DNA of 64,000 nt from Bacteroidia bacterium. GTDB taxonomy: Bacteria > Bacteroidota > Bacteroidia > B-17B0 > Aurantibacillaceae. Below, piece after piece: positions 26,938-43,053 of the stretch. Position numbers and translations under genes: made by a program. The stretch lies in assembly GCA_021740825.1 (NCBI GenBank), contig JAIOZA010000011.1, positions 1-64,000 on the forward strand. Reading direction: 5' to 3'. The number at the start of each line of letters is the position of its first letter. Position 1 is the first letter of the stretch. Below the pieces are notes generated by a model, which saw only the letters and a list, made by a program, of their open reading frames with translations, was not told where the DNA came from and made no database searches.

Positions 26938-28461
26938 TTAATTAAGATTAATTAAACCCCATAGCGAAGGATTGATATTGAAACCTTCTTGCTGTGGACT
27001 AGCCCATCTTGTTTGTTTTATTCTTTTTCCGGACGCATCGCCATCATCAATGGCTATTTCAAATCCATATTTTTCTCCCTTTATCATTTTTGCATCTCCT
27101 ATTGCACTAAACGGAATTTTTATTTCAATTTGATAACCATAATCAGTTTTATTAATCATTACTTCGGCGTCAGTTATAATAGATTTCTTTTTCCAATTCC
27201 ACACATAAGGTTTATCTGTTGCTTTAATTCCTATTTGAAAATCACTCCATAAATATCTAGTTCTATTTAAATCTGCGCTGGCATTTGTTCCAAAACTAAT
27301 TTCCAAAGCATCACCATTCCAAATATCACTGTTATTTTGGTTATTAATTAATGGATGTTTATCAAAAATGCTAGCTGCAATAAATAAATTTTTATCATCA
27401 TAATTAATATGTATTTTATGTAAGTCATCTATAAGCAAAGATTTGCTGCCCCACTCTTCATCCGAAATACTTCCATCAATTTTTATATTCGAACTAACTT
27501 TAAAGGCATCAAATTTAGGTTTCAAAATTCCTTCAAATGGTACAATTGTCATTTCATCAATAATAAAATCTCCTTCTGCTTCAAACTGCATAATAAATTG
27601 TTTAATATTAAAAACATCCAAATCAGTTTGAGCAATTGGAAATACATTAAATGGTATAGTTATTTTGGTCCAATTTGCTGTTATTTTTCCTCCGTCAATA
27701 AATGAGGTCGAAAAACCGGTATACGCCTGAACGCCAGAATAATCTTCTAATGCCAAAGCAACCGGAAGTCCTTTTAATGTATCGCCTTTAGTTCTCGCAA
27801 AAAATTGAATCGCTGCCTTGCCAACTAAACCAGAAATATCTTTTCCTTGCCAACCATTCCAACCAATGCCCATTCCAATCCAATTGCAGCCACCAGAAAT
27901 TTTATCCCATTTTATATGCAAACCATTATTGCCTTTGTATTTATTGATATTATCAACAGAAGCATCAATACACTTTTTATTTTCTGTAAACCAAATCTCT
28001 TTAGATAATGCATCTGAAAATAAATTCAATGCATAAAAACCATCGATATTTGCTTCATTCAAAGTATCCTCTGTATCATATAACTGAGATTGTTTAAATA
28101 CTGACTTTTTTTTATCAGAAACAGTAATTTCTTTGATGTCTATTTCTTTTCTTTTTAACTCAATTTGTAATTGATTGTTTTTTTCAAGAGAAATTTGCTC
28201 ATCATAACTTTGATAACCTAAAAAAGAAACTACCAATCTTATGTTTTTATCCGTTGCCTCAATTAAAAAATATCCATCTTTATTTGTAACAACCTTTTTT
28301 TTAGATTGTTTTATTGTGACTATTGCATCGCTAATATTTTTTTTAGTGGAAAAATCTTTAACGATTCCGCTAATAGAATAAACATCTTTAGTCTGGCAAA
28401 ACAATGAAAAGCCAATACTTAAGAAAGAAAAAAGAAAAATTATTTTTAATTTATTAATCAA
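26938..28461 (-). CDS. Surface protein with carboxypeptidase-D-like, galactose-binding-like and CBM9-like domains
   Basis: This 507-residue exported protein has a signal sequence ending SLFCQ. Residues about 28-112 form a carboxypeptidase-regulatory-like beta-sandwich (YSISGIVKDFSTKKNISDAIV). Residues about 150-335 look like a galactose-binding/CBM11-type jelly-roll (GMGIGWNGWQGKDISGL...DGGKITANWTKITIPF...FIIDEMTIVPFEG). Residues about 345-505 resemble a CBM9-like domain (IKIDGSISDEEWG...GFEIAIDDGDASGKR). There is no enzymatic domain, so it is likely a glycan-capture protein. Its ATG overlaps the stop of the lipoprotein gene at 28458 by 4 nt, indicating translational coupling. Confidence 0.72.
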   Translation of the reverse strand: MINKLKIIFLFSFLSIGFSLFCQTKDVYSISGIVKDFSTKKNISDAIVTIKQSKKKVVTNKDGYFLIEATDKNIRLVVSFLGYQSYDEQISLEKNNQLQIELKRKEIDIKEITVSDKKKSVFKQSQLYDTEDTLNEANIDGFYALNLFSDALSKEIWFTENKKCIDASVDNINKYKGNNGLHIKWDKISGGCNWIGMGIGWNGWQGKDISGLVGKAAIQFFARTKGDTLKGLPVALALEDYSGVQAYTGFSTSFIDGGKITANWTKITIPFNVFPIAQTDLDVFNIKQFIMQFEAEGDFIIDEMTIVPFEGILKPKFDAFKVSSNIKIDGSISDEEWGSKSLLIDDLHKIHINYDDKNLFIAASIFDKHPLINNQNNSDIWNGDALEISFGTNASADLNRTRYLWSDFQIGIKATDKPYVWNWKKKSIITDAEVMINKTDYGYQIEIKIPFSAIGDAKMIKGEKYGFEIAIDDGDASGKRIKQTRWASPQQEGFNINPSLWGLINLN

Positions 28462-29483: not shown

Positions 29484-31211
29484 TTAGAATTTCATATTAT
29501 AAATAATTAATAACTGATTTATGGAATAGGAAGATACGCTATTTAATTTATTTGTAAAATCATAATTTTGATAAAGTGCTGTTAAATAAATTTTATCAGA
29601 AAAACGATACCTCAAACCGCCTCCTAAAATCATTTCAGAAGTATTAATTTTATATTCGTTAAAATCCGTTACTTCAGAGTACTTATTTCTATCAGCAATC
29701 AATTCATTTCCATTTGCTTCATAAGAAATTATACCACCGAGTAAATCAAAGTTTTTATAAAACTCAACTTCAAATCCTGCGTTCCAATTAGTTGATGTTA
29801 AATTTATTTTTTCAAAATCTAAATCGCTATTTCGTTTTGTTGATTGCGTTGAAAAACCTGTTGTTATTTTGATATTTTTTTTGAGTGCCAACAACTTATG
29901 TAAATTAAATTCAGCATGAGATTTGATAAGATTAAATGACTTCAATTTTTCTGTACCTTGACCTTTTATTTCATTTAATAAATAAGTTTCTGCTCCCAAC
30001 TTTACTATTTCTTTTTTATCTACAAAATCAAGTTTTGCATAAACACCTTGTCTGTTAAAAGTTGCAATACCAAATGGCATCACATTATTATAGGCCGGAT
30101 TAAATGCCATTAAATTATTACTAATGGATTTGTTATATAAAGTTTCATCACGCATCATATCAAATATTCCTATAGATCGAAGATCTTGTTGATTTGTATA
30201 CCGGTTATAAACTGAAGGAGTTGCATTGTAATTCATTCGTTTTGATTGAGCTCCAGCACTTCTAAATTCAGGTCCAACATCCAAATAACCAAGTGTTAAT
30301 TTAGTATGCATTGGTTTGTAAGATAAAGAAATTCCCAAATCTAAAAATGAGTCATCTAATTTTGGCGCCAACGAATCTAATGTATATTTAGATTCCGAAA
30401 ATCCCGCTTCTCCAAAAAATCGAAAATCAATTTTTTCTTTTCCCAATTGTAATTCATAATTTAAGGATGCTACATTATTTCTAAATGCATTTTTATTTGA
30501 CGATGTACCAATTAAATCAAATAAACTAACATAATTAATTCCAACAAATAAATTCTTACTTTGTTGAATGCCAATGTTTCCTCCTCCATAAAATCTATCT
30601 GGTACATTAGTAAAATCGGTTACATTAATTCGATTAATAAATCCGTTAAATTTTATCTCTTTAATAATTTTAGCAAATTCAAGCGCAAAATCAGCTGCTG
30701 CACCTTGTTGTCTCCAAGTGTTTTTTTGATAAAATGTTTCGTAATTCACAATTTCTCTCTGCAATTTAAAAACATCTGGCTGCTGAATAAGTTGATCTTC
30801 ATCATGATTATAAAAAGTAAATGGTGTTAGTTTATAATTAATATCGCCTAATTGATATCTTACCACATTTCCAATAATTCCTTTAACGTATAACTGACGC
30901 ACATCAAACGTTACCCCTGCTCCATAAAATCCACCGAAAGCATTTCTTATCCTCATCATGCCTAATATTTCGGTGTTTTTGTTTGGGAAAATATTTACAC
31001 CTAAATCAATTAAAGCGTAGCCACCCATTTTCTTTTTAGCGGTAACTGTATCTTCTATTGGATCTTTAACAACCAACTCATTACTATTCATGATAGAACG
31101 AGCTACACCTACAAACTGAACTTTTTTTGCAGTTTGTGATTTTGCCTGATTATAAATACATACCAACAATAATATGTAGTATAGAGTCTTTATTTTATAA
31201 TTTACTTTCAT
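29484..31211 (-). CDS. Outer-membrane beta-barrel protein of the glucan locus (second)
   Basis: This 575-residue protein has a signal peptide (YYILLLVCIYNQAKSQ). The whole mature chain is a large beta-barrel with aromatic-flanked strands, ending IYNMKF. There is no plug, TonB box or SusC feature. It shares the motif LTPFTFY (residues about 127-133) and a following Y/F-Q...W..QG pattern with the next upstream gene (31222-33162), so the two barrels are probably paralogues. Only 10 bp separates them. Passive uptake of gluco-oligosaccharides across the outer membrane is a reasonable inference from context; no homologue of known function was recognised. Confidence 0.68.
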   Translation of the reverse strand: MKVNYKIKTLYYILLLVCIYNQAKSQTAKKVQFVGVARSIMNSNELVVKDPIEDTVTAKKKMGGYALIDLGVNIFPNKNTEILGMMRIRNAFGGFYGAGVTFDVRQLYVKGIIGNVVRYQLGDINYKLTPFTFYNHDEDQLIQQPDVFKLQREIVNYETFYQKNTWRQQGAAADFALEFAKIIKEIKFNGFINRINVTDFTNVPDRFYGGGNIGIQQSKNLFVGINYVSLFDLIGTSSNKNAFRNNVASLNYELQLGKEKIDFRFFGEAGFSESKYTLDSLAPKLDDSFLDLGISLSYKPMHTKLTLGYLDVGPEFRSAGAQSKRMNYNATPSVYNRYTNQQDLRSIGIFDMMRDETLYNKSISNNLMAFNPAYNNVMPFGIATFNRQGVYAKLDFVDKKEIVKLGAETYLLNEIKGQGTEKLKSFNLIKSHAEFNLHKLLALKKNIKITTGFSTQSTKRNSDLDFEKINLTSTNWNAGFEVEFYKNFDLLGGIISYEANGNELIADRNKYSEVTDFNEYKINTSEMILGGGLRYRFSDKIYLTALYQNYDFTNKLNSVSSYSINQLLIIYNMKF

Positions 31212-31221
31212 TAATTATTTT

Positions 31222-33162
31222 TTAAAAAAATAGTTTTAATTCTACGGTAGTTTCTGTTCCAATATATTTATCCTTTTTGAAGCTGTAATCATGATAATCT
31301 ATCCACCTTTGACGAACATACAAACCGGCGTTTTTTCCAAGTGACAAATCAAAACCCGTTGCAAAACTTAATCCTTCCTGATTCCTGGGTCTTCTTGTTT
31401 CGGTATCCAAATCTGTATTGTAATTTGCAATAATCCTTTCCCAACCAAAATAATTAGCTATCACCAAATTTGAATTTACTTTAAAGTAAAGTTCAAATTG
31501 ATGATAATAGTTTCTAATGTAGGCTTGTTCAGTAAATACTGTAATAGCAGACATTTTTTTCTGAATAGAATTATAAGATCCCAAATAATTTAAATAAACA
31601 TCATGATTTAAAATATTGAACGCGTATTTAGCATTTATCTCAATAGTGTTAAAATTTTTAAGCGTCAACGACGTATCGTTTACATTTATTGTTTCATAAA
31701 CTCCTCTGTATACTTTTGTTAAATTACCGTAAGGACCTAAACCTGTTGTTGGATAATTACTCCATCTCCAAAATCTAGACAGCGCTAAATTGTTTGTAGG
31801 ATGATTATAAGTTATTTGTGTAGATATATTTGATATTTCCTGAGAAATACCATTTCCAATACTTAATTTTAATTTTCCAATATTTAAATCGGCATTAATG
31901 TTTAAACCTTGACGATTATTAGTAAGCTGACCAATTTGCACCATTGAACTTGCAAATGGTGCTAATACAGCATTACCCGATGCTGTTGCAATAGTATTTT
32001 GTTGAGTTTCCACCACCGAAGAATTCCAAAAAATAGAATTATTATTGATGACATTAGAATTAATTCGGAAGTAGTTAATCTCAATAGGAATTAACGCATA
32101 TTTTTTAGGTAGTAATAATTTAAAATTCAATGCTTCACCAAAATCTCCTATATTAGAAGAATCAGAAAAACCAGCAGAATAAAGAGGACTAAAATACTTG
32201 CCAAGGCCTACCTCTCCAGATAATACAACATCTTTCCAATTTAAATTATATTCAACAGTGTGCATATTAAAACCAACAGTTTGTTTAGCAAGACTATCCG
32301 TATATGTTTTACTATTAAACGTATTGACACTTACAAAACTTTTACCAAATGTTTTTTTTAATTTACCACCTATTGAGTTATCAGGGATTGAAGTCATTCC
32401 GCCATTAACAACACTTTTACCGTACATCACCACCGCAGAAAAATCATAAGGTAAATCATCCGCTTCAACAATTAATCCCTGAAAAGCTTGTTTTCCCCAC
32501 CTTGAGTCTTGAGTAATTCCTCCGTATTGGTAAAAAGATTTATAGCGGTCAACCGGTGATTTAGATCCTGGATCCCAAGGATTTCTCTCAAAAACAGAAT
32601 ATCGGTTATATCCCAAGTTAGTGTAAAATGTAAATGGCGTTAGAGAATACCAGTGAATACCACCAGCCATTATATTAAAATTACCAATATCTGTTGCAAA
32701 CGAACCATATAAATTCACTCCTAAATTTAAGCCTTTCACATATTCGCTTGGAGCTAAACCAGTCATTTTATTCCATAAATACAAATCAGTTCCAAAGCTT
32801 GTATTTGCGGTAGGCTTTCCCGAAATATTTAACATCAGTTCAGGAATCTGACTATCATCTCCAATAAATAGTTTTTTAGGTGTAGAGGCAAAAGATGTTG
32901 TATCGGAAGGTGAATTTGAATATGCAGTTTTCATCTGCTGATAATTGCCTATAAACCTGTAATAACCACTAATAGTAAGATTTTTTAAAGTAGATTCAAC
33001 TTGTTTTGGGAATGAACCGTAACTTGTATTATTTAAACTAGTAAGAAATTTAATTTTCTCTTTTAAACCTAAAGAGTCTTGCGAATTGGCTTTCGTGAAA
33101 AATAAACATAGCAAAACAACACTAAAAAATTTTAATAGAATATGACTTGCTATTTTTTTCAT
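31222..33162 (-). CDS. Outer-membrane beta-barrel protein of the glucan locus (first)
   Basis: This 646-residue protein has a signal peptide (LLKFFSVVLLCLFFTKANSQ) and a mature part made of amphipathic strands ending TTVELKLFF. The shared WYSLTPFTFYTNLGYNRYSVFERNPW segment relates it to the barrel at 29484-31211. There is no TonB plug domain, so it is not SusC. It is the first gene after an internal promoter: a -7 box (33168-33175) ends 5 nt before its ATG, and a regulator-type inverted repeat lies at 33179-33199. This suggests that barrel and hydrolase genes downstream are directly controlled by the NUDIX-type regulator. Confidence 0.7.
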   Translation of the reverse strand: MKKIASHILLKFFSVVLLCLFFTKANSQDSLGLKEKIKFLTSLNNTSYGSFPKQVESTLKNLTISGYYRFIGNYQQMKTAYSNSPSDTTSFASTPKKLFIGDDSQIPELMLNISGKPTANTSFGTDLYLWNKMTGLAPSEYVKGLNLGVNLYGSFATDIGNFNIMAGGIHWYSLTPFTFYTNLGYNRYSVFERNPWDPGSKSPVDRYKSFYQYGGITQDSRWGKQAFQGLIVEADDLPYDFSAVVMYGKSVVNGGMTSIPDNSIGGKLKKTFGKSFVSVNTFNSKTYTDSLAKQTVGFNMHTVEYNLNWKDVVLSGEVGLGKYFSPLYSAGFSDSSNIGDFGEALNFKLLLPKKYALIPIEINYFRINSNVINNNSIFWNSSVVETQQNTIATASGNAVLAPFASSMVQIGQLTNNRQGLNINADLNIGKLKLSIGNGISQEISNISTQITYNHPTNNLALSRFWRWSNYPTTGLGPYGNLTKVYRGVYETINVNDTSLTLKNFNTIEINAKYAFNILNHDVYLNYLGSYNSIQKKMSAITVFTEQAYIRNYYHQFELYFKVNSNLVIANYFGWERIIANYNTDLDTETRRPRNQEGLSFATGFDLSLGKNAGLYVRQRWIDYHDYSFKKDKYIGTETTVELKLFF

Positions 33163-33167
33163 TTAAA

Positions 33168-33178: not shown

Positions 33179-33199
33179 ATATTGTTTTTAAAACACTAA
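33179..33199. promoter_or_regulatory. Putative operator of the NUDIX-type regulator (site 5)
   Basis: The plus strand reads ATATTGT-TTTTAAA-ACACTAA. The right arm is the exact complement of TTAGTGT found in other sites, and the left arm differs from TTATTGT by one base. The spacing of 7-7-7 bp is the same as in the four other copies. It is centred 17.5 bp upstream of the -7 box, a repressing position. Confidence 0.6.
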
Positions 33200-33206
33200 C
33201 TATTTC

Positions 33207-34547
33207 TTAATTTTCTTGAAAAGAATTCATTGTCGGGTGCTTGAAATTCACAAAATGAGCTGGTGGATCATTTGGAGTTCGAGGTATAACATAAAAAGTA
33301 ATATTAGCATAACCAACTTTCTTTCCATCGGAAACTGTTACAAACAATCTGTATGCTCCTTCATTTATAGGCGCTTTAAATATAATTTTATTGTCTTTTT
33401 TTGATTTTATAAGGCCTCTTAACTCCTCAGGTTTTAATTCAGCGTCTCCTCCTGACTTTAAATCGGTACTTTCTGGCAGAACAAACCACCTGTATATTAG
33501 TTTATCGTTTTCTCGATTAGTTGAAAAAACTTGCGCTTCAAATTTATTTTCTGACTTTAAATAAATATTTTGATTTTTATTCATTCCGATCACAACTAAA
33601 GAATCAATGGATGGAGCTGTATTTGTCGGCAATTTTTCTTTCCAACAATATTCAATCGCATCAACGGTTTCAGTGGGTTCTCCTTTTTCAGTAAACATAC
33701 CATACCAAGTTCCTGTATATTCTTGCTTGTGCCCCCATAAAAAAACATACGAACCAACGCATTTTTCAACGTCTGAATAAATAAATTTATCATAACGTTC
33801 TTTATATACGATAAATTTTTCTTTACTTGTTTGCTCTATAGAAGAGCCCCACTCCGTCTTAGGTGATTCCCAATGGCCATTTGGTCCCCACTCTGTAATC
33901 ATATATGGGCCATTCCATCCAAATTTTCTTATATTTTCTTTTACATTACCAATATCACCGTATGTATTAATTCCGTAAATATCTATATTTGGTGTTTTCT
34001 GCTTTATAAAAGCAACTTCAGACGAATCTAAACCGGCAGTAACAGTTGAAGTAGGATGATTTGGATCTAATTCGTGAATCATTTTTGCAATATCATTTAT
34101 AGCATCCCAAACATTTGTATTAGAGTATGATAAGTCAACTTCATTACCTACGCCCCACAGCAATAAAGCTGGATGATCTTTATATTTTTTTACAGTTTCA
34201 CGAAAATCATTAAGTTGTTTTTCAATTTTCGCTTTATTATTATAATCAAAACCATGTCTTTCATGCTGAACCCACAATCCTAACATAACTGTCAAACCAT
34301 GTTTTTGAGCATCATCTAAAATTTGTTGTGCATTTTCAGAACCCCATGTTCTTAATGAATTCCCTCCACATTCCAAAATTCTATCCATATATTTATCACC
34401 ACCTGCTCCTTTTATATAATAGGGTTTTCCATCTCTATATAAATTCCACGTAGTTCCATCAAGTTTAACTTCAACTTTTATTGGAGTTTGAGCTATCATT
34501 GATTGGCATGTCAAAAAAATAATTGAAATAATAAAGCTAGTTTTCAT
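33207..34547 (-). CDS. TIM-barrel glycoside hydrolase (GH2/GH5-like)
   Basis: This 446-residue secreted hydrolase has a signal peptide (FIISIIFLTCQSMIAQ). Residues about 45-280 form a (beta/alpha)8 barrel: GVGNE gives a likely acid/base E136 and ITEWGP a likely nucleophile E219, the two-glutamate arrangement of clan GH-A. YIKGAGGDKYMDRILECGGNSLRTW is typical of GH2-like TIM barrels. A C-terminal beta-sandwich (about 320-440) follows. Family GH158 beta-1,3-glucanases are one alternative. The ATG at 34547 was chosen over the further upstream start because it gives a clean signal peptide and lies 10 bp after the regulator's stop codon. Confidence 0.78.
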   Translation of the reverse strand: MKTSFIISIIFLTCQSMIAQTPIKVEVKLDGTTWNLYRDGKPYYIKGAGGDKYMDRILECGGNSLRTWGSENAQQILDDAQKHGLTVMLGLWVQHERHGFDYNNKAKIEKQLNDFRETVKKYKDHPALLLWGVGNEVDLSYSNTNVWDAINDIAKMIHELDPNHPTSTVTAGLDSSEVAFIKQKTPNIDIYGINTYGDIGNVKENIRKFGWNGPYMITEWGPNGHWESPKTEWGSSIEQTSKEKFIVYKERYDKFIYSDVEKCVGSYVFLWGHKQEYTGTWYGMFTEKGEPTETVDAIEYCWKEKLPTNTAPSIDSLVVIGMNKNQNIYLKSENKFEAQVFSTNRENDKLIYRWFVLPESTDLKSGGDAELKPEELRGLIKSKKDNKIIFKAPINEGAYRLFVTVSDGKKVGYANITFYVIPRTPNDPPAHFVNFKHPTMNSFQEN

Positions 34548-34557
34548 GTTCATTAAT

Positions 34558-35247
34558 TTAGAGTTCAAATGAAAATCCTTTTTGAATAAGTGATTGGTAT
34601 TTCTTTTTATCAAATCTGTAAAGTCTTGCAGGACGGTGAGCAACTGCATTTTGAGAAAAACCACTATCAATTAGTAAACCCATTGCTAATAATTTTTTTC
34701 TAAAATTCCTCTTATCTAACTCAATTTCGAAAACAGATTCGTAAAGATGTTGAATGTCTGTTAAGGTAAATTCTTTTGGCAAAAGTTCAAAACCTATTGG
34801 CTGATGGCGCACCTTATCTTTCAATTTATTTTTAGCATATTCTAAAATCTCATTATGATCAAATGGAAGTTTAGGAATGCTGCTAATAGAATGCCATTTT
34901 ACATCCTTTGCCCAAGAAGAAGCATTAACTTTATAATCACTCACTTTTACTAATGAATAATAGGCTACTGTAATAACCCTTCCCAAGGGATGTCGCTCAA
35001 CTTTACCAAATGTATGAATTTGGTCCATGTACACATTTGTTAAACCAGTTAGTTCATTTAATACGCGCCTAGCAGAATCATCTAAATCTTCATCTAATCT
35101 CACTAAATCTCCAGGTAAAGCCCAAGTTCCTTTGTAAGGATCTGCACCCCTATAAATAAGTAGCACTTTAAGATCTCCTTCATCAAAACCAAATATAACA
35201 GAGTCGACAGAAAAAGCCGATCTAAAAAACTGTTTAATTACATTCAT
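34558..35247 (-). CDS. NUDIX-winged-helix transcriptional regulator (NrtR family)
   Basis: This 229-residue cytoplasmic regulator has an N-terminal NUDIX domain (about 8-145) and a C-terminal winged helix (about 150-225, with FTLTDIQHLYESVFEIELDKRNFRKKLLAMGLL). The NUDIX box PGDLVRLDEDL...RRVLNELTGL keeps the fold glycines but lacks two Glu of the REUxEE metal site (RVLNEL), so it probably senses a ligand rather than hydrolysing one. NrtR-family members in Bacteroidota control sugar catabolism. It lies upstream of the TIM-barrel hydrolase (10 bp) and is divergent from the sugar kinase across a region containing a 21-bp inverted repeat. A -7 box ends 4 nt before its ATG. Confidence 0.88.
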   Translation of the reverse strand: MNVIKQFFRSAFSVDSVIFGFDEGDLKVLLIYRGADPYKGTWALPGDLVRLDEDLDDSARRVLNELTGLTNVYMDQIHTFGKVERHPLGRVITVAYYSLVKVSDYKVNASSWAKDVKWHSISSIPKLPFDHNEILEYAKNKLKDKVRHQPIGFELLPKEFTLTDIQHLYESVFEIELDKRNFRKKLLAMGLLIDSGFSQNAVAHRPARLYRFDKKKYQSLIQKGFSFEL

Positions 35248-35251
35248 ATAA

Positions 35252-35259
35252 CAAATATA
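35252..35259 (-). promoter_or_regulatory. -7 promoter box of the NUDIX-type regulator
   Basis: The minus strand reads TATATTTG, only 4 nt before the ATG at 35247, implying a leaderless message. Operator site 1 is centred 39.5 bp upstream. Confidence 0.55.
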
Positions 35260-35284
35260 TTAAAAGATTATTAATTTAATTAGA

Positions 35285-35305
35285 TTAGTGTATAAAATAC
35301 AATAA
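35285..35305. promoter_or_regulatory. Putative operator of the NUDIX-type regulator (site 1)
   Basis: The plus strand reads TTAGTGT-ATAAAAT-ACAATAA, a 7-7-7 inverted repeat with one mismatch between arms. It is in the 100-bp divergent region between the regulator and the kinase gene, centred 21.5 bp upstream of the kinase -7 box. Confidence 0.68.
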
Positions 35306-35317
35306 TTAATTGTATTT
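35295..35317. repeat. Perfect 9-bp inverted repeat overlapping operator site 1
   Basis: The arms AAATACAAT and ATTGTATTT are exact complements around AATTA. The structure overlaps the right half of operator site 1 and the kinase -7 box (35313-35320). It may be a second, offset binding site for the same or another regulator. Confidence 0.6.
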
Positions 35318-35320
35318 TTG
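35313..35320 (+). promoter_or_regulatory. -7 promoter box of the kinase-glycolysis operon
   Basis: TATTTTTG fits TAnnTTTG and lies 27 nt before the ATG at 35348. The -33 region coincides with operator site 1. Confidence 0.5.
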
Positions 35321-35347
35321 TATAAATTTAATTATTTTATTTAAATT

Positions 35348-36208
35348 ATGGTCATAATTGCTGACAGTGGATCTACAAAAGCAGATTGGAAATTGATTAG
35401 TAACAACAAGGTTGTTAAAACCATTCGTACAATGGGTTTTAATCCTTTTTTTCATACAGAAAAAATTATCGTTGACGAGTTAACAAAGTGCTTTCAAAAT
35501 GAACTTGATGTAAACGATGTTTCTAAAGTACATTTTTACGGAGCAGGCTGTTCAAGTGAGGATAGAAATCAAATAATACAAACCGCTTTAACCTCATTTT
35601 TTCCAAACTCAAAAAACGAAGTTTATCATGATATTTTAGCTTCTGCAAGAGCTACCTGTGGTAATAATCCAGGAATAGCTTGTATTTTAGGGACTGGTTC
35701 AAATTCGTGCGCGTATGACGGCATAGATATTACTGATAATCTTCCTTCTTTAGGATTTATGTTAGGTGACGAAGGAAGTGGAAGTAGTTTTGGTAAATTA
35801 CTTATTAGAAAAATATTTTATAGAGAATTGTCGGAAGATTTATTACAATTATTCAATTCAAAATATAAATTATCTAAAGAGGATATTTTAGATTCATTGT
35901 ATAACAAACCACATGTGAATGTTTTTTTATCAAAGTTTTCTGAGTTTTATTCAGAAAACCAGAATCATCCTCAAATCAAAAAAATGGTCAAGACAGTTTT
36001 TACTGAATTTTTTGAATGTCATATTGTAAAATATAAAAATCACGATACTTACCCTATCCATTTTGTAGGCTCTATAGGATTTATTTTTAGGCCAATATTA
36101 GAAGATGTAGCAAAAGATTTTAAAGTGAATTTAGGCGTGACAATAAAAAATCCAATTGACTCATTGGTCAATTTTCATATAAATACGTTTTCGGAAAATT
36201 TAATTTAA
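35348..36208 (+). CDS. BadF/BadG-type ATPase, probable sugar kinase
   Basis: This 286-residue cytoplasmic protein of the ASKHA fold is likely a hexose or amino-sugar kinase. Visible motifs are phosphate-1 IIADSGSTKADW (residues 2-13), an adenosine/phosphate-2 region CILGTGSNSCAYDG, and MLGDEGSGSSFGK. These resemble N-acetylglucosamine kinase of the BadF/BadG/BcrA family. Its position directly ahead of pfkA, gapN and the isomerase suggests that it phosphorylates glucose released by the glucan enzymes. Substrate choice between glucose, GlcNAc and glucosamine cannot be decided from the sequence. pfkA starts 72 bp downstream, with operator site 2 in between. Confidence 0.8.
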   Translation: MVIIADSGSTKADWKLISNNKVVKTIRTMGFNPFFHTEKIIVDELTKCFQNELDVNDVSKVHFYGAGCSSEDRNQIIQTALTSFFPNSKNEVYHDILASARATCGNNPGIACILGTGSNSCAYDGIDITDNLPSLGFMLGDEGSGSSFGKLLIRKIFYRELSEDLLQLFNSKYKLSKEDILDSLYNKPHVNVFLSKFSEFYSENQNHPQIKKMVKTVFTEFFECHIVKYKNHDTYPIHFVGSIGFIFRPILEDVAKDFKVNLGVTIKNPIDSLVNFHINTFSENLI

Positions 36209-36245
36209 GATAGTGAATATTTGCGTTATAAAAACCATAAAACAC

Positions 36246-36266
36246 TTAGTGTATATTTTACAATAA
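36246..36266. promoter_or_regulatory. Putative operator of the NUDIX-type regulator (site 2)
   Basis: The sequence TTAGTGT-ATATTTT-ACAATAA matches site 1 in both arms and even in the bases that follow (ATTAAT). It ends 14 nt before the pfkA ATG, so it could block an internal promoter or act as a roadblock. Confidence 0.65.
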
Positions 36267-36280
36267 TTAATAAAAAAAAA

Positions 36281-37267
36281 ATGAAAGATGAAATTAAAAA
36301 AATAGCGTTATTAACTTCTGGAGGAGATGCTCCAGGCATGAATACCTGTATAAGAGCAGTTGTTAGAGCAGGAATCTATTACAATTTAGAAGTATATGGT
36401 ATTAAAAGGGGTTATCAAGGTTTAATTGAAAATGATATTCAATTAATGTCATCTCGTTCTGTCAGTAATATTATTCAAAGAGGAGGAACTATATTAAAAT
36501 CAGCAAGAAGTAAAGACTTTATGCTACAAAGTGGTATGGATGCTGCATATCAAAATTTAAAAAATAAAGATATTGATGCTCTCATAGTAATAGGCGGCGA
36601 TGGTACATTTACTGGTGCCAATATTTTTTCAAACAAATTCGACATTCCAATCATAGGAATTCCTGGAACTATTGATAACGATTTAAACGGCACTGATGCA
36701 ACAATAGGATTTGATACTGCTACAAATACTGCATTAGACGCTATCGATAAAATTAGAGATACCGCCAATTCTCATAATAGATTATTCTTTATAGAAGTTA
36801 TGGGAAGAGATTCGGGTTATATAGCAATTAAAACAGGAATTAGTGGTGGTGCAGAAGCTATTTTAATTCCTGAAAAGAAAACAACCATCAACGAATTAAT
36901 TGCAATTTTAGATAGAGGTTCTAAACAAAAAAAATCATCAAGTTTAGTAGTTATAGCTGAGGGAGGAGAAAGTGGCGGTGTAATTGACTTAGCAAAGAAA
37001 GTAGAAGAGAGATTCAGCTATTACGATACAAGAGTTACAATTTTGGGGCATCTTCAAAGAGGAGGCACGCCAACTTGCACTGATAGAGTATTAGCTAGTT
37101 TACTGGGAGTAAGAGCCGTTGAAGGTTTAAAAGAAGGTAAATCGAATATGATGGTGGGCACCATTAATAAAAAAGTTGTATTTACTCCTTTCGAAAAAGC
37201 ACTCAAAAAGAAAAAAACAATAGACCGCGAGTTACTTAGAATATCAAAAATTTTATCAAACAATTAA
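36281..37267 (+). CDS. pfkA: ATP-dependent 6-phosphofructokinase
   Basis: This 328-residue cytoplasmic enzyme phosphorylates fructose-6-phosphate to fructose-1,6-bisphosphate. The motifs are complete: LTSGGDAPGMN (14-21 core), GGDGTFTGA (105 onward, Gly rather than Asp after GGD, as in ATP-using enzymes), catalytic PGTIDNDLNGTD (D132), and VMGRDSGYIA. The length is typical of bacterial PfkA. The ATG at 36281 was chosen because the longer frame from TTG 36221 would run through operator site 2. gapN follows after 22 bp. This is probably a second, locus-dedicated glycolytic gene. Confidence 0.95.
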   Translation: MKDEIKKIALLTSGGDAPGMNTCIRAVVRAGIYYNLEVYGIKRGYQGLIENDIQLMSSRSVSNIIQRGGTILKSARSKDFMLQSGMDAAYQNLKNKDIDALIVIGGDGTFTGANIFSNKFDIPIIGIPGTIDNDLNGTDATIGFDTATNTALDAIDKIRDTANSHNRLFFIEVMGRDSGYIAIKTGISGGAEAILIPEKKTTINELIAILDRGSKQKKSSSLVVIAEGGESGGVIDLAKKVEERFSYYDTRVTILGHLQRGGTPTCTDRVLASLLGVRAVEGLKEGKSNMMVGTINKKVVFTPFEKALKKKKTIDRELLRISKILSNN

Positions 37268-37289
37268 AATCATCTAAACCTATAATAAA

Positions 37290-38936
37290 ATGGATAAATT
37301 AAATGAAAATCAGAATACAGGAATAGACTTAAGTAAGTTATTTCCAGAGGAAAGCGAAATTCCAAATGAATATAATTTTACAGAAACAATTGAACAAAAA
37401 GAATACTTGATTAACGGAAAAATAGAATCGTGGGATACGTCTTTCCAAGATGTTTATTCACCGGTTTGCATAAAATCAAATGAAGGACTAAATCCAAAAC
37501 GTTTAGGAAAATATCCTTTGCTTACCGAAAAAGAATCGCTAGAAGCTTTAGATGCGGCTGTAAAATGTTATGACCACGGAAGAGGTGTTTGGCCAACAAT
37601 GACAGTAAAAGACAGAATTACCTGCATGGAACTATTTGTTTCGAGAATAAAGGTAAAAAGATCTGAAGTTGTAAAAATATTAATGTGGGAGATTGGAAAA
37701 AATTTAGAAGATTCGGAAAAAGAATTTGATAGAACTATTGAATACATCAATGATACAATTGAAGAAGTAAAAAAATTAGACAGAGAATCATCTCGCTTTC
37801 AAATTCATCAAGGAATAATAGCTCAAATTAGAAGAGGTCCATTAGGTGTTGTGCTTTGTATGGGACCATTTAATTATCCTTTAAATGAAACGTTTTGTAC
37901 GCTAATACCAGCGCTAATAATGGGAAATACGGTCATTATCAAACCACCAAAAAAGGGTGTTTTATTATACCGCCCATTACTAGCGGCATTTAGAGATTGC
38001 TTTCCTAATGGAGTTGTAAATGTAGTTTACGGAGAAGGCGCCATTACATCAGGAACACTTATGAAATCAGGGAAAATTGATGTGCTTGCATTTATCGGAT
38101 CTAGTGCGGTAGCTAACGAATTAAAAAAATTACATCCCTACCCGCACAGACTTCGTTCCGTATTAGGATTAGAAAGTAAAAACCCTGCCATTATATTGCC
38201 TGATGCAGATTTAGAACTAACAGTAAAGGAATGTCTACTAGGTTCATTATCATTTAACGGACAAAGATGCACGGCGCTAAAAATGATTTTTGTTCATTCG
38301 AAAATAAAGGATGAATTTATAAAATTATTTTCAGCAGCAGTAGATCAAATTAAATATGGAATGCCTTGGGAAAAAGGAATTTTAAATACTCCACTTCCTG
38401 ATATTTTGAAAGTGCAATACATGGAAGAATTAGTGAACGATGCCGTATCAAAAGGAGCAAAAGTAATTAATAAAAATGGCGCTCATTTGCAATCCACATT
38501 TTTCTTTCCAACGATTGTTTTTCCAGTAAACGATAGTATGCGCATTTATCATGAGGAACAATTTGGACCTGTTATTCCCATTTTAGAATATGATAATATT
38601 GAAACACCTATAAATTATATGGTAAATTCTCCATACGGTCAGCAAGCAAGTATTTTTGGAACAAATTCTCAAACAATAGCAAAATTAATAGATCCACTGA
38701 TTAACCAAGTATGCAGAATCAATATTAACAGTCAATGTCAGAGAAGTCCGGATAACTATCCATTTTGTGGAAGAAAAAATTCGGCAGAAGGAACCTTATC
38801 TGTGTTTGACGCATTGAGAGTATTCTCGATTAGAACTTTGGTAGCCGCTAAAAAAAATGAACTCAACGAGAAAATTCTTTCAAGTATTATTCACGATAGA
38901 CAATCAAATTTTTTAAGAACAGATTATATATTTTAA
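37290..38936 (+). CDS. NADP-dependent non-phosphorylating glyceraldehyde-3-phosphate dehydrogenase (GapN-type)
   Basis: This 548-residue aldehyde dehydrogenase oxidises an aldehyde with NAD(P). The catalytic set is present: N195 in MGPFNYPLNE, E295 in LGLESKNPA and nucleophile C327 in SFNGQRCTALK, a string typical of GapN. GapN converts glyceraldehyde-3-phosphate straight to 3-phosphoglycerate with NADPH formation, bypassing ATP-yielding GAPDH. The N-terminus has an extra ~45 residues compared with streptococcal GapN. It lies between pfkA and the isomerase in one operon, supporting a glycolytic substrate. Another aldehyde substrate remains possible. Confidence 0.85.
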   Translation: MDKLNENQNTGIDLSKLFPEESEIPNEYNFTETIEQKEYLINGKIESWDTSFQDVYSPVCIKSNEGLNPKRLGKYPLLTEKESLEALDAAVKCYDHGRGVWPTMTVKDRITCMELFVSRIKVKRSEVVKILMWEIGKNLEDSEKEFDRTIEYINDTIEEVKKLDRESSRFQIHQGIIAQIRRGPLGVVLCMGPFNYPLNETFCTLIPALIMGNTVIIKPPKKGVLLYRPLLAAFRDCFPNGVVNVVYGEGAITSGTLMKSGKIDVLAFIGSSAVANELKKLHPYPHRLRSVLGLESKNPAIILPDADLELTVKECLLGSLSFNGQRCTALKMIFVHSKIKDEFIKLFSAAVDQIKYGMPWEKGILNTPLPDILKVQYMEELVNDAVSKGAKVINKNGAHLQSTFFFPTIVFPVNDSMRIYHEEQFGPVIPILEYDNIETPINYMVNSPYGQQASIFGTNSQTIAKLIDPLINQVCRININSQCQRSPDNYPFCGRKNSAEGTLSVFDALRVFSIRTLVAAKKNELNEKILSSIIHDRQSNFLRTDYIF

Positions 38937-38967
38937 CAAACATTAAAAAAGAATTAAATAAAAAACC

Positions 38968-39957
38968 ATGAAATCATTAATCCAAAATTTTTCAAATCAA
39001 TTATCAGAAGCCATAATTATAGGAGAGTCTGCTAAGCTTACCCAATCAGTTCACAAAATATCAAATATTTTAATTTGTGGAATGGGTGGATCAGGAATTA
39101 GCGGAAATATTTTAAACGAGTTAGTAAATACCGAAGTAAATGTTCCAATAAATATTTGCAAAGGATATTTTATACCAAATTACGTCTGCGAAAATACATT
39201 AGTAATCATTTCATCCTACTCAGGAAATACAGAAGAAACTATAAACTGTATTAATATGGTTATTCAAAAAAATGCTAAGGTAGTTTGTATTACATCAGGA
39301 GGTATCATTGAAAGAATAGCAATTGAAAATAATTTTGATTACATTCTTATACCAGGAAATATGCCACCTAGATCATGTTTAGGATATTCTCTGATTCAAA
39401 TGTTTTACATTTTATATTTTCATAAAATTATTGATGATAGCTTTAAAAATGATTTTAAAAATTCTATAAATTTATTAGAACATGAAAACTCAAGTATTAA
39501 AGCCGATGCTGAAGAACTCGCTAAATTACTATTTAAAAAAACACCAATTATTTACACAACTACAAATAACGAAGCTTTAGCAATAAGATTTAGACAACAA
39601 TTAAATGAAAATTCAAAAGTACTTTGTTGGCATAATACTATACCAGAAATGAATCATAATGAACTTGTAGGATGGACTTCTAAAAACGAATCTATAGCAG
39701 TATTAATTCTATTAGATGAAACAGATTATAAAAGAAATAAAATTAGGGCTGGTTTAAATTTAGAAGTTATAAAAAAATACGCTTCAAGCGTAAACGTCAT
39801 TTATTCTAAAGGAGAAACAGCCATAGAAAAAGCAATTTACTTTATTACTTTATGTGATTGGATTTCAATATTTTTAGCAGAAATGCGCGAAATTGACCCT
39901 GTTGAAGTTGATGTTATTAATGAACTTAAAAATTCCTTAGCTAACCTAATTGACTAA
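38968..39957 (+). CDS. Bifunctional phosphoglucose/phosphomannose isomerase
   Basis: This 329-residue SIS-domain protein interconverts glucose-6-phosphate or mannose-6-phosphate with fructose-6-phosphate. Family landmarks are ILICGMGGSGISGNI (residues about 32-46), ISSYSGNTEETI, and the signature IPEMNHNELVGW with the catalytic His/Glu region. The length is typical of the archaeal/bacterial PGI/PMI family rather than the larger classical Pgi. It is the last gene of the plus-strand operon (31 bp after gapN) and converges with the sugar permease. It supplies the step between the kinase and PfkA, making the local pathway continuous. Confidence 0.9.
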   Translation: MKSLIQNFSNQLSEAIIIGESAKLTQSVHKISNILICGMGGSGISGNILNELVNTEVNVPINICKGYFIPNYVCENTLVIISSYSGNTEETINCINMVIQKNAKVVCITSGGIIERIAIENNFDYILIPGNMPPRSCLGYSLIQMFYILYFHKIIDDSFKNDFKNSINLLEHENSSIKADAEELAKLLFKKTPIIYTTTNNEALAIRFRQQLNENSKVLCWHNTIPEMNHNELVGWTSKNESIAVLILLDETDYKRNKIRAGLNLEVIKKYASSVNVIYSKGETAIEKAIYFITLCDWISIFLAEMREIDPVEVDVINELKNSLANLID

Positions 39958-39978
39958 TTAAATATCACATACAAAAAA

Positions 39979-41424
39979 CTAATGTGCCATTGTGGAATTA
40001 TCTGCAATGGCAATATTTTGTGATTTTAAAATAACTTTAACTTTTAATGCATAAAAAGCAAGGTATGCAAAACAACACACTCCAACCAAGTAACTCCATT
40101 GAATTCCAAGGAAATTATTTGCCGCTAAGTATCCTTGCAGCAAACTAATAAAGCCACCTCCCATAATCATCATTATTAAAAAACTAGAACCTTGGTTTGT
40201 AAATTTTCCTAATCCAGAAATTGCCAAAGTAAATATGCATGGCCATAAAGTGCTACAAAATAAACCTACACTAATAAAAGCAAAAACACTTACCATTCCG
40301 GAAGAAATCATACCAATAAACAACGCTATAATTCCAAAAACTGAATATATTAATAATTGAGTTGCAGGGTTTCCTTTACTCATTATATCACCAACTACTA
40401 AAACTAATATTATTACTGAATAAATATAAAAAGGAGTAACATCATTATTTGCAAAAATATTAATTAATAGAAAAACTAAAAAAGCTATGTATGGCATAAA
40501 AAACTGTAATATTTTTTTTGTTCCCATTTTCAAGTTAAATGCTCCAACAGAAGCAGTCCACCTTCCAATCATTAAACTAGCCCAAAACAAAGACACAAAT
40601 GGCGCTATTTTATTAGTTTCAATATTTAAATGTTGCTTCATAAATTCAGGTAAATTACTAGCAGTGGATACTTCAACACCCACGTATAAAAAAATAGCAA
40701 TCATTCCTAAAACTAATTGTGGGTAATCTAACGCACTTTTTTTAGTTATGTCTTTTTGGGTTCCTTTATCTATTTCATCCGTAACTGTTTCAATTTTATT
40801 AGGAATAGAAGAAAATTTAAAAATAACCGCCACAACTAAAAACGCAAAACCTAAAATCATATAAGGTATCTTTATGCTTTCGATATTTGATCCATTTTCA
40901 TTTTTACTTAATGAACCAAAAATGGCAAAACTAATTAGAATAGGTCCGATAGTAGTTCCTAAATTATTTATTCCTCCTGCTAAACTTAATCTCTGAGAAC
41001 CTTTTGAAGGGGCTCCCATGACAATAGCCAATGGATTTGCAGCTGTTTGTTGCAATGAAAAACCTAATCCAACAATAAATAATCCTGAAATCATTAATGG
41101 AAAAGATGCCATCTCTGCAGCCGGATAAAATAATAAAGTACCAAGTGCAGAAATTAACAACCCTACTACAATTCCATTTTTGTAGCCAACTTTATTTAAT
41201 ATATCTCCACCAGAAAACTTTGAAATTAAAAAATAAATAATTGATCCAACGGTATAAGCAACATAAAATGCAAAAGAAATTAATTGAGATTGCCATTGGT
41301 CAAGATGTAAATTTTCCTTAAAAACAGGTATTAAAATATCATTGCTTGCTGCTACAAATCCCCAAAAGAAAAAAACCGAGATTAATACTATTAACGAAGA
41401 ATTACTTTTTTTTACTGTTGTCAT
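39979..41424 (-). CDS. Sugar MFS transporter (FucP/glucose-galactose type)
   Basis: This 481-residue inner-membrane symporter of the FHS family of the major facilitator superfamily probably imports glucose, galactose or a related monosaccharide with H+ or Na+. Landmarks are LIVLISVFFFWGFVAASNDILIPVFK at the start, VGYKNGIVVGLLISALG, and QQTAANPLAIVMGAPSKGSQRLSLAGGINNLGTTIGP, which is typical of FucP-like proteins. Twelve membrane helices fit the pattern. Its upstream region carries operator site 3 (41458-41478), so it is likely in the same regulon. It would bring in glucose released in the periplasm by GH3. Confidence 0.9.
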   Translation of the reverse strand: MTTVKKSNSSLIVLISVFFFWGFVAASNDILIPVFKENLHLDQWQSQLISFAFYVAYTVGSIIYFLISKFSGGDILNKVGYKNGIVVGLLISALGTLLFYPAAEMASFPLMISGLFIVGLGFSLQQTAANPLAIVMGAPSKGSQRLSLAGGINNLGTTIGPILISFAIFGSLSKNENGSNIESIKIPYMILGFAFLVVAVIFKFSSIPNKIETVTDEIDKGTQKDITKKSALDYPQLVLGMIAIFLYVGVEVSTASNLPEFMKQHLNIETNKIAPFVSLFWASLMIGRWTASVGAFNLKMGTKKILQFFMPYIAFLVFLLINIFANNDVTPFYIYSVIILVLVVGDIMSKGNPATQLLIYSVFGIIALFIGMISSGMVSVFAFISVGLFCSTLWPCIFTLAISGLGKFTNQGSSFLIMMIMGGGFISLLQGYLAANNFLGIQWSYLVGVCCFAYLAFYALKVKVILKSQNIAIADNSTMAH

Positions 41425-41457
41425 TACTATTATTTAAAGAATTTAAAATTTTAAAAG

Positions 41458-41478
41458 TAAGTGTTTTTTTTACAATAA
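41458..41478. promoter_or_regulatory. Putative operator of the NUDIX-type regulator (site 3)
   Basis: The plus strand reads TAAGTGT-TTTTTTT-ACAATAA, with the right arm exact and the left arm one base off TTAGTGT, in the same 7-7-7 layout. It lies 33 bp upstream of the permease ATG at 41424. Confidence 0.55.
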
Positions 41479-41637
41479 CAAATCTGTCTTATATTATTTT
41501 TTTTAAATAGCTATTTTCACATTAATTTGTTAAAACCTGCTTAGAACTTGAATCAAGAAGAACTTTGGAATAAAACAATGAGAATAAAATTCAGAAATAA
41601 TGCAGTTTTTATCCAATTTTAAAAAATATTTTCTTAC

Positions 41638-41658
41638 TTATTGTATTTTAAACAATAA
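41638..41658. promoter_or_regulatory. Putative operator of the NUDIX-type regulator (site 4)
   Basis: The sequence TTATTGT-ATTTTAA-ACAATAA has perfectly complementary 7-bp arms. It is centred 19.5 bp upstream of the -7 box at 41664-41671, overlapping the -33 region of the repeat-protein gene at 41713. Confidence 0.68.
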
Positions 41659-41712: not shown

Positions 41713-43053
41713 ATGGACAAAAAAAATTTACTTACAAAAGGAGTAATTATGAGTATCATAGTGTTCTCACTAATTACTCTTAATTTAAATGCTCAAAACA
41801 ATCAAGCTAAAGAAAATAACCTAATTGATTTAGTTATTAACGTTGATGTATGTACTACAACTGCGGACACAGTTAGAATTACTGGTCCATTTTGGAATTG
41901 GAATCCAAATGGTGGACCTCTTGGAACAAATAATGGTAACGGTTCATGGTCTTTTACATTATCTCCTGCTCCAAGTGCAGATATGGAATATTTAGTTATA
42001 GTTGATGGCGTTCAAGAAAACTTAATTGCTGATATGCAAAACGGTGGGACATGCGCCCCAGTTACAGATTATGCTAATTACGCTAATAGAAAATGGGTTG
42101 TGGGTTCAGGAGATATAAATATCATTTATGATCGCTGCGTTCCATGTTCTAATTTGGTTATTAATGTTGATGTATGTACTACAACAGCTGACACAGTAAG
42201 AATAACAGGACCATTTTGGGGATGGAATCCAAATGGTGGGCCACTAGGAACAAATAACGGTAACGGAACATGGTCTTTTACCTTATCCCCTGCTCCAACT
42301 GCTGATATGGAATATTTAGTTATAGTTGATGGAGTTCAAGAAAACTTAATTTCCGATATGCAAAACGGAGGAACCTGTGCACCAGTAACAGATTATTTTA
42401 GTTATGCAAACAGAAAGTGGGTTGTAGGTTCAGGGGATGTATTTATTTCTTATGATCGTTGTGTTCCATGTTCTTATCCAAACATAGTTATTACAACTTG
42501 TGCGCCAGGTGCTACATCTGTAAAATTAACCGGACCTAATTGGCAGTGGAATCCTAATTTCGGGCCTTCAGCTGTAAACAATGGTAATGGAACTTGGACT
42601 TTTTCAATTTCTCCTGCGCCAAATGATACATTAGAATACAAATTAATTAAGGATGGAATTTTTGAAGATTTAATTCCAGCGATGCTTAGTGGCGGAACTT
42701 GTGCGCCAGTTACTGATTATGCAAATTACGCAAATCGCAGATGGTTAATTGCAGATGGTGCTATTTCAAACACCTTCGGTAGTTGCGCTACTTGCAGTGT
42801 TACGGGTATTAATGAAAATATAAATGGCTCTCTTCAAATTTTCCCTAATCCAACCAATTCTAATGTAAAAATAAGATATTCTAATAAATCATTTAAAACT
42901 AAGTTATTAAATATTTTAGGAGAGGTAATAATTGAAAGTAGTTCGGATAATTTTGAGGACGAGTTAAATTTAAGCAACTTTGCAAGCGGTATTTATAACT
43001 TAACGATTACTTCAAATAATGAAACAAAATCAATCAAATTAATTAAAGAGTAA
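41713..43053 (+). CDS. T9SS-exported protein with three tandem ~107-residue repeats
   Basis: This 446-residue secreted protein has a signal peptide (IMSIIVFSLITLNLNAQ). Three repeats lie at about 40-145, 148-253 and 256-361, each with ITGPFWxWNPNGGPLGTNNG, SPAP..DMEYL, DGVQENL and GGTCAPVTDY landmarks and four conserved Cys. The first two are nearly identical and the third is more divergent. A T9SS type A sorting domain ends the protein (IFPNPTNSNVKI, 376 onward). I recall similar Trp-rich modules beside GH16 laminarinases in marine Bacteroidota, so glycan binding is plausible. Operator site 4 places the gene in the glucan regulon. Confidence 0.82.
   Translation: MDKKNLLTKGVIMSIIVFSLITLNLNAQNNQAKENNLIDLVINVDVCTTTADTVRITGPFWNWNPNGGPLGTNNGNGSWSFTLSPAPSADMEYLVIVDGVQENLIADMQNGGTCAPVTDYANYANRKWVVGSGDINIIYDRCVPCSNLVINVDVCTTTADTVRITGPFWGWNPNGGPLGTNNGNGTWSFTLSPAPTADMEYLVIVDGVQENLISDMQNGGTCAPVTDYFSYANRKWVVGSGDVFISYDRCVPCSYPNIVITTCAPGATSVKLTGPNWQWNPNFGPSAVNNGNGTWTFSISPAPNDTLEYKLIKDGIFEDLIPAMLSGGTCAPVTDYANYANRRWLIADGAISNTFGSCATCSVTGINENINGSLQIFPNPTNSNVKIRYSNKSFKTKLLNILGEVIIESSSDNFEDELNLSNFASGIYNLTITSNNETKSIKLIKE

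Follow-up and report, generated by a model that had tools for sequence, protein, structure and literature searches.

What controls a locus in which the degradation of a glucan, the uptake of a sugar and several glycolytic enzymes appear to be encoded side by side? The window analysed here, a stretch of 64,000 nucleotides from a member of the Aurantibacillaceae (Bacteroidia), raises this question. On its forward strand lie genes for a sugar kinase of the BadF/NagK type that is a candidate glucokinase (35348–36208), an ATP-dependent 6-phosphofructokinase (PFK, 36281–37267), an aldehyde dehydrogenase most closely related, among solved proteins, to non-phosphorylating glyceraldehyde-3-phosphate dehydrogenases (GAPN, 37290–38936), and a bifunctional phosphoglucose/phosphomannose isomerase (PGI, 38968–39957), which are followed by a gene for an MFS sugar transporter of the GluP/FucP/NagP type on the reverse strand (39979–41424) and by a forward-strand gene for a surface protein with CBM48-like repeats and a T9SS sorting domain (41713–43053). 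The reverse strand also encodes a secreted GH158 endo-β-1,3-glucanase with its catalytic residues N137, E138 and E221 present (33207–34553), an outer-membrane-type protein of unassigned function that has no Pfam match and is 73% identical in the related locus L057 (31222–33162), an outer-membrane β-barrel-like protein with a weak Pfam match (29484–31211), a protein without Pfam match that is conserved in L057 (28458–29462), and a carboxypeptidase-regulatory-like protein with CBM30/CBM9-type glycan binding (26938–28461). With functions assigned by homology, the predicted regulon is coherent and leads from β-1,3-glucan via glucose to glycolysis. The solved relatives of the kinase include GlcNAc/MurNAc kinases. 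Neither the kinase nor the PFK is unique in the genome, as there is a 40%-identical kinase copy on contig C30 and a second PFK on contig C17. ROK, Glk and a classical PGI were not found in the genome, and these absences are provisional because the genome is only 87.6% complete.

The initial annotation described five intergenic 21-bp inverted repeats of 7-7-7 architecture starting at 33179, 35285, 36246, 41458 and 41638. The sequences are found at exactly these starts, and each falls between reading frames. As putative operators, they are arranged as follows: the first (33179–33199, reverse strand) precedes the outer-membrane protein gene at 31222–33162, the second (35285–35305, forward strand) lies in the divergent promoter region of the kinase and the regulator and thus, as had been claimed, in the promoter of the regulator itself, the third (36246–36266, forward strand) is positioned 14 bp upstream of the PFK start codon, the fourth (41458–41478, reverse strand) precedes the MFS transporter gene, and the fifth (41638–41658, forward strand) precedes the gene of the CBM48-like T9SS surface protein. 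To say that each lies before a different transcription unit is slightly too strong, as the repeats at 36246 and 33179 fall inside collinear gene runs, where they may drive internal promoters. Of the promoter boxes proposed for three repeats, all three exact TAnnTTTG matches exist, downstream of the first, the second (on the kinase side) and the fifth operator, but they start 3, 7 and 5 bp past the operator edge (14–18 bp from the centre) and not 17–22 bp away. At 36246 and 41458, an exact box is missing downstream, and the only boxes, which lie upstream of these operators, deviate by one mismatch.

Could such palindromes simply have arisen by chance in AT-rich intergenic DNA? The regions that hold them are indeed 82–92% A+T. 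In a pattern search of the whole genome (2,946,009 bp), TTAGTGT-N7-ACAATAA with at most one mismatch occurs at seven places, five of which are the repeats of the window, within 8.5 kb. The remaining two, C43:26554 within a coding frame and C34:7176 about 80 bp upstream of a PAS histidine kinase, are likely chance matches and not further operators. Depending on the background rate chosen, the Poisson probability of at least four further sites is 5e-11 to 2e-8, and a loose form of the motif was observed five times as compared to 0.002 matches in shuffles of the AT-rich gaps alone. An independent matrix, trained on operators of distant loci only, with the window and its three closest relatives left out, gives the five repeats the five highest ranks in the 64-kb window (scores 15.9–19.5; 9.7 for the next match; block shuffles give an expectation of 0.08). 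When the matrix is built from NAD-type sites alone, four repeats rank 1 to 4, and the one at 41638, in which both half-sites are TTGT, ranks only seventh. As positions are also conserved in relatives (see below), the probability that the repeats are mere products of base composition is negligible. Enrichment in the genome, which had been suggested as a test, was seen only in the sense that five of the seven close matches are at the locus, since the raw count was nine for the motif and nine for a reversed control pattern. Because this raw count is not above the control, we base the argument on clustering, the independent matrix and conservation instead of enrichment: the operator signal is one of local clustering, symmetry and conservation, without genome-wide enrichment by raw count.

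Which protein might bind these sites? The gene at 34558–35247 on the reverse strand codes for a regulator of 229 aa that, by its domains and its similarity to BtAraR, the AraR of Bacteroides thetaiotaomicron (BT0354; PDB 5bs6, 5deq), is assigned to the NrtR family. Matches to Pfam PF00293, PF21906 and PF19368 (NUDIX, NrtR_WHD and AraR_C domains) are above cut-off, and the N-terminal Nudix domain is followed by the C-terminal NrtR winged helix that characterizes the family, a domain order found as well in the classical, ADP-ribose-responsive NrtR of Shewanella (3gz5). BtAraR is the best solved relative (E=1e-53), a similarity high enough to settle the fold, and likewise combines a Nudix-like sensor having an impaired Nudix box with a winged helix. 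In the regulator of the window, the Nudix signature (GX5EX7REUXEEXGU) is degenerate (GDLVRLDEDLDDSARRVLNELTGL), with RE changed to RV and EE to EL, which is a family trait like the palindromic 21-bp operator in the regulator's own promoter. All of the BtAraR recognition-helix residues D178, K179, R180, N181, R183 and K184 are retained (DKRNFRK), as are five of the six DNA-contact residues K179, R180, N181, K184, K204 and R205, the exception being K204, which is replaced by His. BtAraR was crystallised on AAAGTGT-TACTTTT-ACACCCA, a 21-bp operator of the same 7-7-7 geometry, from which it is released by L-arabinose (PMC4666351).

The same spacing is found with homologous regulators. Of 81 distant homologues, 45 have TGT-N7-ACA upstream, where 7.0 would be expected and shuffles reach a maximum of 11, and 28 have GTGT-N7-ACAC there (0.5 expected); no spacer other than 7 comes near that enrichment. 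In 36 of the 81, including L065, L073 and L138 of the same clade, TGT-N7-ACA is absent upstream of the regulator's own gene. The same operator precedes the own gene in many homologues across Bacteroidota and Planctomycetota, those of the latter flanking NAD genes. A comparison of orthologous loci, as initially called for, shows that the nearest relatives (L057 and L058) keep two sites in place, one between kinase and NrtR and one between GH158 and the outer-membrane protein, with TAnnTTTG 1–5 bp downstream. Beside the same regulator, the nearest relative has a complete Entner–Doudoroff set in place of PFK–GAPN–PGI, again with sites. Within the same larger clade, regulators are found beside MFS, SusC/D and GH16 genes, beside GH16 or beside GH3, with sites preceding SusC or surface genes. 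In L153, which belongs to a starch-type clade, the order is NrtR-site-PFK-GAPN-kinase-GH31, and in L115 a site lies between NrtR and GAPN-kinase-GH31.

It could be that another, unlinked regulator owns the sites and that the NrtR-type protein acts elsewhere, and the raw genome-wide motif count, being equal to the control, would fit with this. However, the motif goes with the regulator gene in different phyla, with the spacing used by BtAraR, whose recognition helix is the same as that of the window's protein, and this makes the idea very unlikely. The link between regulator and sites, and with it a control of glucan and glucose genes, had been an inference of the initial annotation; recognition helix, 7-bp spacing in homologues, conserved sites and gene functions now support it well, albeit short of proof. 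It is therefore likely that the NrtR-family protein encoded next to the five repeats uses them as its operators; it would be a locus-specific sugar-responsive repressor.

What does the regulator sense? At the positions of the AraR arabinose pocket R34, F36, G47, G48, F49, R86, V92, F129 and H131, it has R, A, G, D, L, R, V, F and H. Three of these positions differ, and the sugar-contacting R34, R86 and H131 are kept; together with G89, which is Leu here, the substitutions F36A, G48D and F49L set the protein apart from AraR, as do its placement on a different branch of the tree and its predicted targets, which comprise genes for β-1,3-glucan, glucose and glycolysis and none for arabinose. A regulator that binds the sites and yet responds, as classical NrtR does, to ADP-ribose or NAD would tie glucan use and glycolysis to the redox or NAD state. 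Such a function would fit with the operator TTAGTGT-N7-ACACTAA that is common to homologues beside NAD genes, in Planctomycetota as well as in the window's own family, and with the GAPN-type enzyme of the locus, whose solved relatives are NADP-dependent. It is nevertheless improbable, as this regulator has Leu in place of the Arg R98, which in SoNrtR makes the contact to ADP-ribose, and GDL in place of GGF (most NAD-linked homologues retain the Arg and GGF), and as the genes next to the five sites include none for NAD metabolism, the target of classical NrtR. With the ADP-ribose-contacting arginine missing from the pocket, glucose or a compound closely derived from it is the probable effector. 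It is less probable, yet possible, that the inducer is glucose-6-phosphate or a β-gluco-oligosaccharide (for example laminaribiose) and not free glucose: the kinase gene shares the promoter region of the regulator and is the catabolic gene that co-occurs most often with it, and GH3 β-glucosidases are present in relatives, but AraR binds a free monosaccharide in the same pocket (PMC4666351), and the sugar-contacting residues R34, R86 and H131 are retained here.

For a glucose-type effector, regulation could proceed as follows. Without inducer, a regulator dimer would occupy the GTGT/TTGT half-sites spaced by 7 bp. In the promoters of the kinase, outer-membrane and surface-protein genes it would thereby cover the -33 region, and at the PFK and transporter genes it would block transcription just past the start. 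Basal GH158 would cut β-1,3-glucan, and glucose would enter via the MFS carrier. Once the Nudix-like pocket has taken up glucose or a compound closely derived from it, the winged helices would leave the DNA, and the whole route of surface binding, GH158, uptake, kinase, PGI, PFK and GAPN would be induced. From the shared divergent site, the regulator probably acts on its own gene as well. Judged from the sequence, the sugar is thus very probably required for the pathway to be switched on.

The kind of regulator is known, and it is the predicted specificity for β-glucan or glucose that is new. AraR, too, is encoded among sugar genes, and its control extends to genes of polysaccharide degradation, and XylR of Bacteroides (BT0791) is another NrtR-family member in a sugar-gene cluster (PMC3878776). 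Flavobacterium xylose-gene loci (L082) probably represent the XylR type, and in contrast to the regulator described here, these xylose-linked homologues carry DKSNFRR as recognition helix and lack a 7-7-7 site upstream of their own gene. A β-1,3-glucan utilisation locus of B. uniformis comprises SusC/D, GH16, GH158 and GH3 (PMC7157763); it shares the GH158 endo-β-1,3-glucanase with the window but is controlled by a hybrid two-component regulator, whereas here an NrtR-type protein takes this place and predicted sites also precede glycolysis genes. In the literature searched, which comprised few subscription journals, no glucose or β-glucan NrtR regulator was found. To our knowledge, the sugar-type NrtR regulators known so far are those for arabinose and, by prediction, xylose.

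There is about an even chance that the regulator belongs to an undescribed glucose-sensing NrtR branch, which would combine a DNA code of the NAD type with a different pocket, would make what is apparently the main glucose route into glycolysis (transporter, kinase, PGI and GAPN) conditional on β-1,3-glucan, and would have an exchangeable catabolic module, PFK-GAPN-PGI here and the complete Entner–Doudoroff set in the nearest relative. The operator matrix permits such regulons to be mapped in other genomes. If the branch exists, regulators that use one common DNA operator with sensor pockets for either a nucleotide or sugars would be a clean case of their kind, the β-glucan/glucose branch would govern glycolytic enzymes as well, and an explanation would be at hand for how many environmental Bacteroidota, such as Saprospiraceae, Crocinitomicaceae and Chitinophagaceae-like bacteria, could regulate glucan use with no hybrid two-component system.

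The initial annotation described five 21-bp inverted repeats, and these are confirmed at exactly the claimed positions (33179, 35285, 36246, 41458 and 41638; putative operators 1 to 5), each built of two 7-bp arms around a 7-bp spacer and all falling between reading frames. Their interpretation as operators of an NrtR-family Nudix and winged-helix protein (34558-35247, minus strand, 229 aa) for glucan and glucose genes is well supported by the sequence comparisons. Across the 58 contigs of the genome (2.95 Mb; 87.6% complete), only seven places lie within one mismatch of TTAGTGT-N7-ACAATAA: operators 1 to 5, one place within a coding frame and one ahead of a PAS histidine kinase. A genome-wide enrichment of the motif was not found (raw counts of 9 matches versus 9 for the reversed-pattern control), and the evidence therefore rests on clustering, symmetry and conservation, not on abundance. 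An independent matrix, built from 30 operators upstream of distant homologous regulators with the window and its three closest relatives excluded, ranks operators 1 to 5 first to fifth over the 64-kb window (15.9-19.5 bits; next best 9.7), and block-shuffled windows yield 0.08 expected matches at this score level. In just the AT-rich gaps where the sites lie, the loose motif occurs five times, versus 0.002 in shuffles of those gaps.

The regulator matches the Pfam families NrtR_WHD, AraR_C and NUDIX, and aligns with the solved AraR of Bacteroides thetaiotaomicron (BtAraR) with E=1e-53. Two catalytic glutamates of its Nudix box are gone (RE to RV, EE to EL), and the Nudix domain is therefore probably a binding domain and not an enzyme. 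Its DKRNFRK segment contains all DNA-reading residues of the BtAraR recognition helix (D178, K179, R180, N181, R183, K184), and the wing residue R205 is also kept. BtAraR, which is set free from DNA by L-arabinose, was crystallized with AAAGTGT-TACTTTT-ACACCCA (PMC4666351), an operator of the same geometry as operators 1 to 5. The helix residues and the operator geometry make the link between regulator and sites much stronger than the neighbourhood argument on which it had been based.

Many of the homologous loci (80 returned by one collection scan and 20 further regions from relatives) carry such sites as well. TGT-N7-ACA occurs upstream of the regulator gene in 45 of 81 non-close regulators, where shuffled sequence gave 7.0 (at most 11). 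For the strict GTGT-N7-ACAC the figures are 28 of 81 and 0.5, and no other spacer length gave anything comparable upstream of these 81. In the two nearest relatives, L057 and L058, whose regulators are 82% identical to that of the window, the gene order kinase-NrtR-GH158-outer-membrane-type protein (OMP) is kept, and in L057 it runs on with the OMP, unknown-protein and CBM-protein genes. Both have sites at the same two places as the window, which can be aligned base by base and are followed after 1-5 bp by TAnnTTTG.

This -7 box has its T at -12 and its G at -5 (PMC6847099). Relative to the starts it predicts, operators 1, 2 and 5 lie at about -40 to -16, where they would overlie the -33 element, a repressor position; the box is 3-7 bp from the operator edges and not 17-22 bp, as had been stated. 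Operators 3 and 4 have only one-mismatch boxes, upstream of the operator, and may thus serve as roadblocks. The starts predicted for the OMP gene (31222-33162, minus strand) and the regulator gene, at 33163 and 35247, are on or beside the start codons, so that both mRNAs may be leaderless.

Among the genes that the sites would control, those on the minus strand after the regulator are headed by a secreted GH158 endo-β-1,3-glucanase (PDB 9oro, E=1.5e-90; catalytic N137, E138 and E221 present), followed by genes for outer-membrane and glycan-binding proteins. The plus-strand run encodes a BadF/NagK-type kinase (35348-36208), PFK, a GAPN-type dehydrogenase and PGI/PMI. The remaining members are a GluP-type transporter and a T9SS surface protein that carries CBM48-like repeats. 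As ROK kinase, classical glucokinase, classical PGI and G6PD have no match in the 87.6% complete genome, the locus looks like its main entry for glucose. Outside the window, the genome also encodes another BadF-type kinase with 40% identity (C30:19972-20805) and another PFK (C17:45835-46662). In L057, a complete Entner-Doudoroff set (G6PD, 6-phosphogluconolactonase, 6-phosphogluconate dehydratase and KDPG aldolase) stands in place of PFK-GAPN-PGI, with operators before G6PD (8965) and between the aldolase and T9SS protein genes (4332). The order NrtR-site-PFK-GAPN-kinase-GH31 recurs in L153, of a separate starch-type clade, and in L115 the site sits between NrtR and GAPN-kinase-GH31. Within the window's larger clade, regulators adjoin MFS, SusC/D and GH16, or GH3 genes, with sites before SusC or surface genes. 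Glucose is the common denominator of these modules. In one further genome (G079), a site at 1501-1521 of L166, ~20 bp ahead of a gene for a secreted glycan-binding-like protein, is not on the same contig as the regulator, which suggests a distributed regulon there.

Homologues adjoining NAPRT, NadE, NAMPT or ADP-ribosylglycohydrolase genes, in Planctomycetota and in the window's own family, likewise have TTAGTGT-N7-ACACTAA as operator. GGF and the arginine touching ADP-ribose in the NAD-type Shewanella NrtR are retained in most of these homologues, whereas the window's clade has GDL and, at the arginine position, Leu, Gln, Tyr or similar. From this common operator and the differing pockets, the DNA code seems better conserved than the choice of ligand. 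In the Planctomycetota loci (L077-L080, L102; NAPRT, NadE or ADP-ribosylglycohydrolase neighbours), mostly tandem operators ~22 bp apart precede the NAD-type regulator, and another lies ahead of the gene run led by NAPRT; in the window's family (L141-L150), a pair ~50 bp apart precedes the NAD-type gene. Several further fully palindromic TTAGTGT-N7-ACACTAA sites in genome G035 suggest a wide NAD regulon. Starch/maltose-associated regulators (L115, L121, L152, L153, L155) mostly have in common a pocket loop extended by a long insertion, e.g. RVRKEQDAEWLKTMRTDPQARV, and possibly form a third ligand class. A sister clade (L123, L124, L127-L129, L131, L133, L135, L136), often adjoining GH3 genes, differs in both half-site (ATTGTGT-N7-ACACAAT) and recognition helix (DRRNFQKK), and is a natural pair for the study of the DNA code. 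For the window, we infer from context and the AraR precedent that the inducer is probably glucose or one of its near derivatives, and the protein would be a known kind of regulator with a new specificity.
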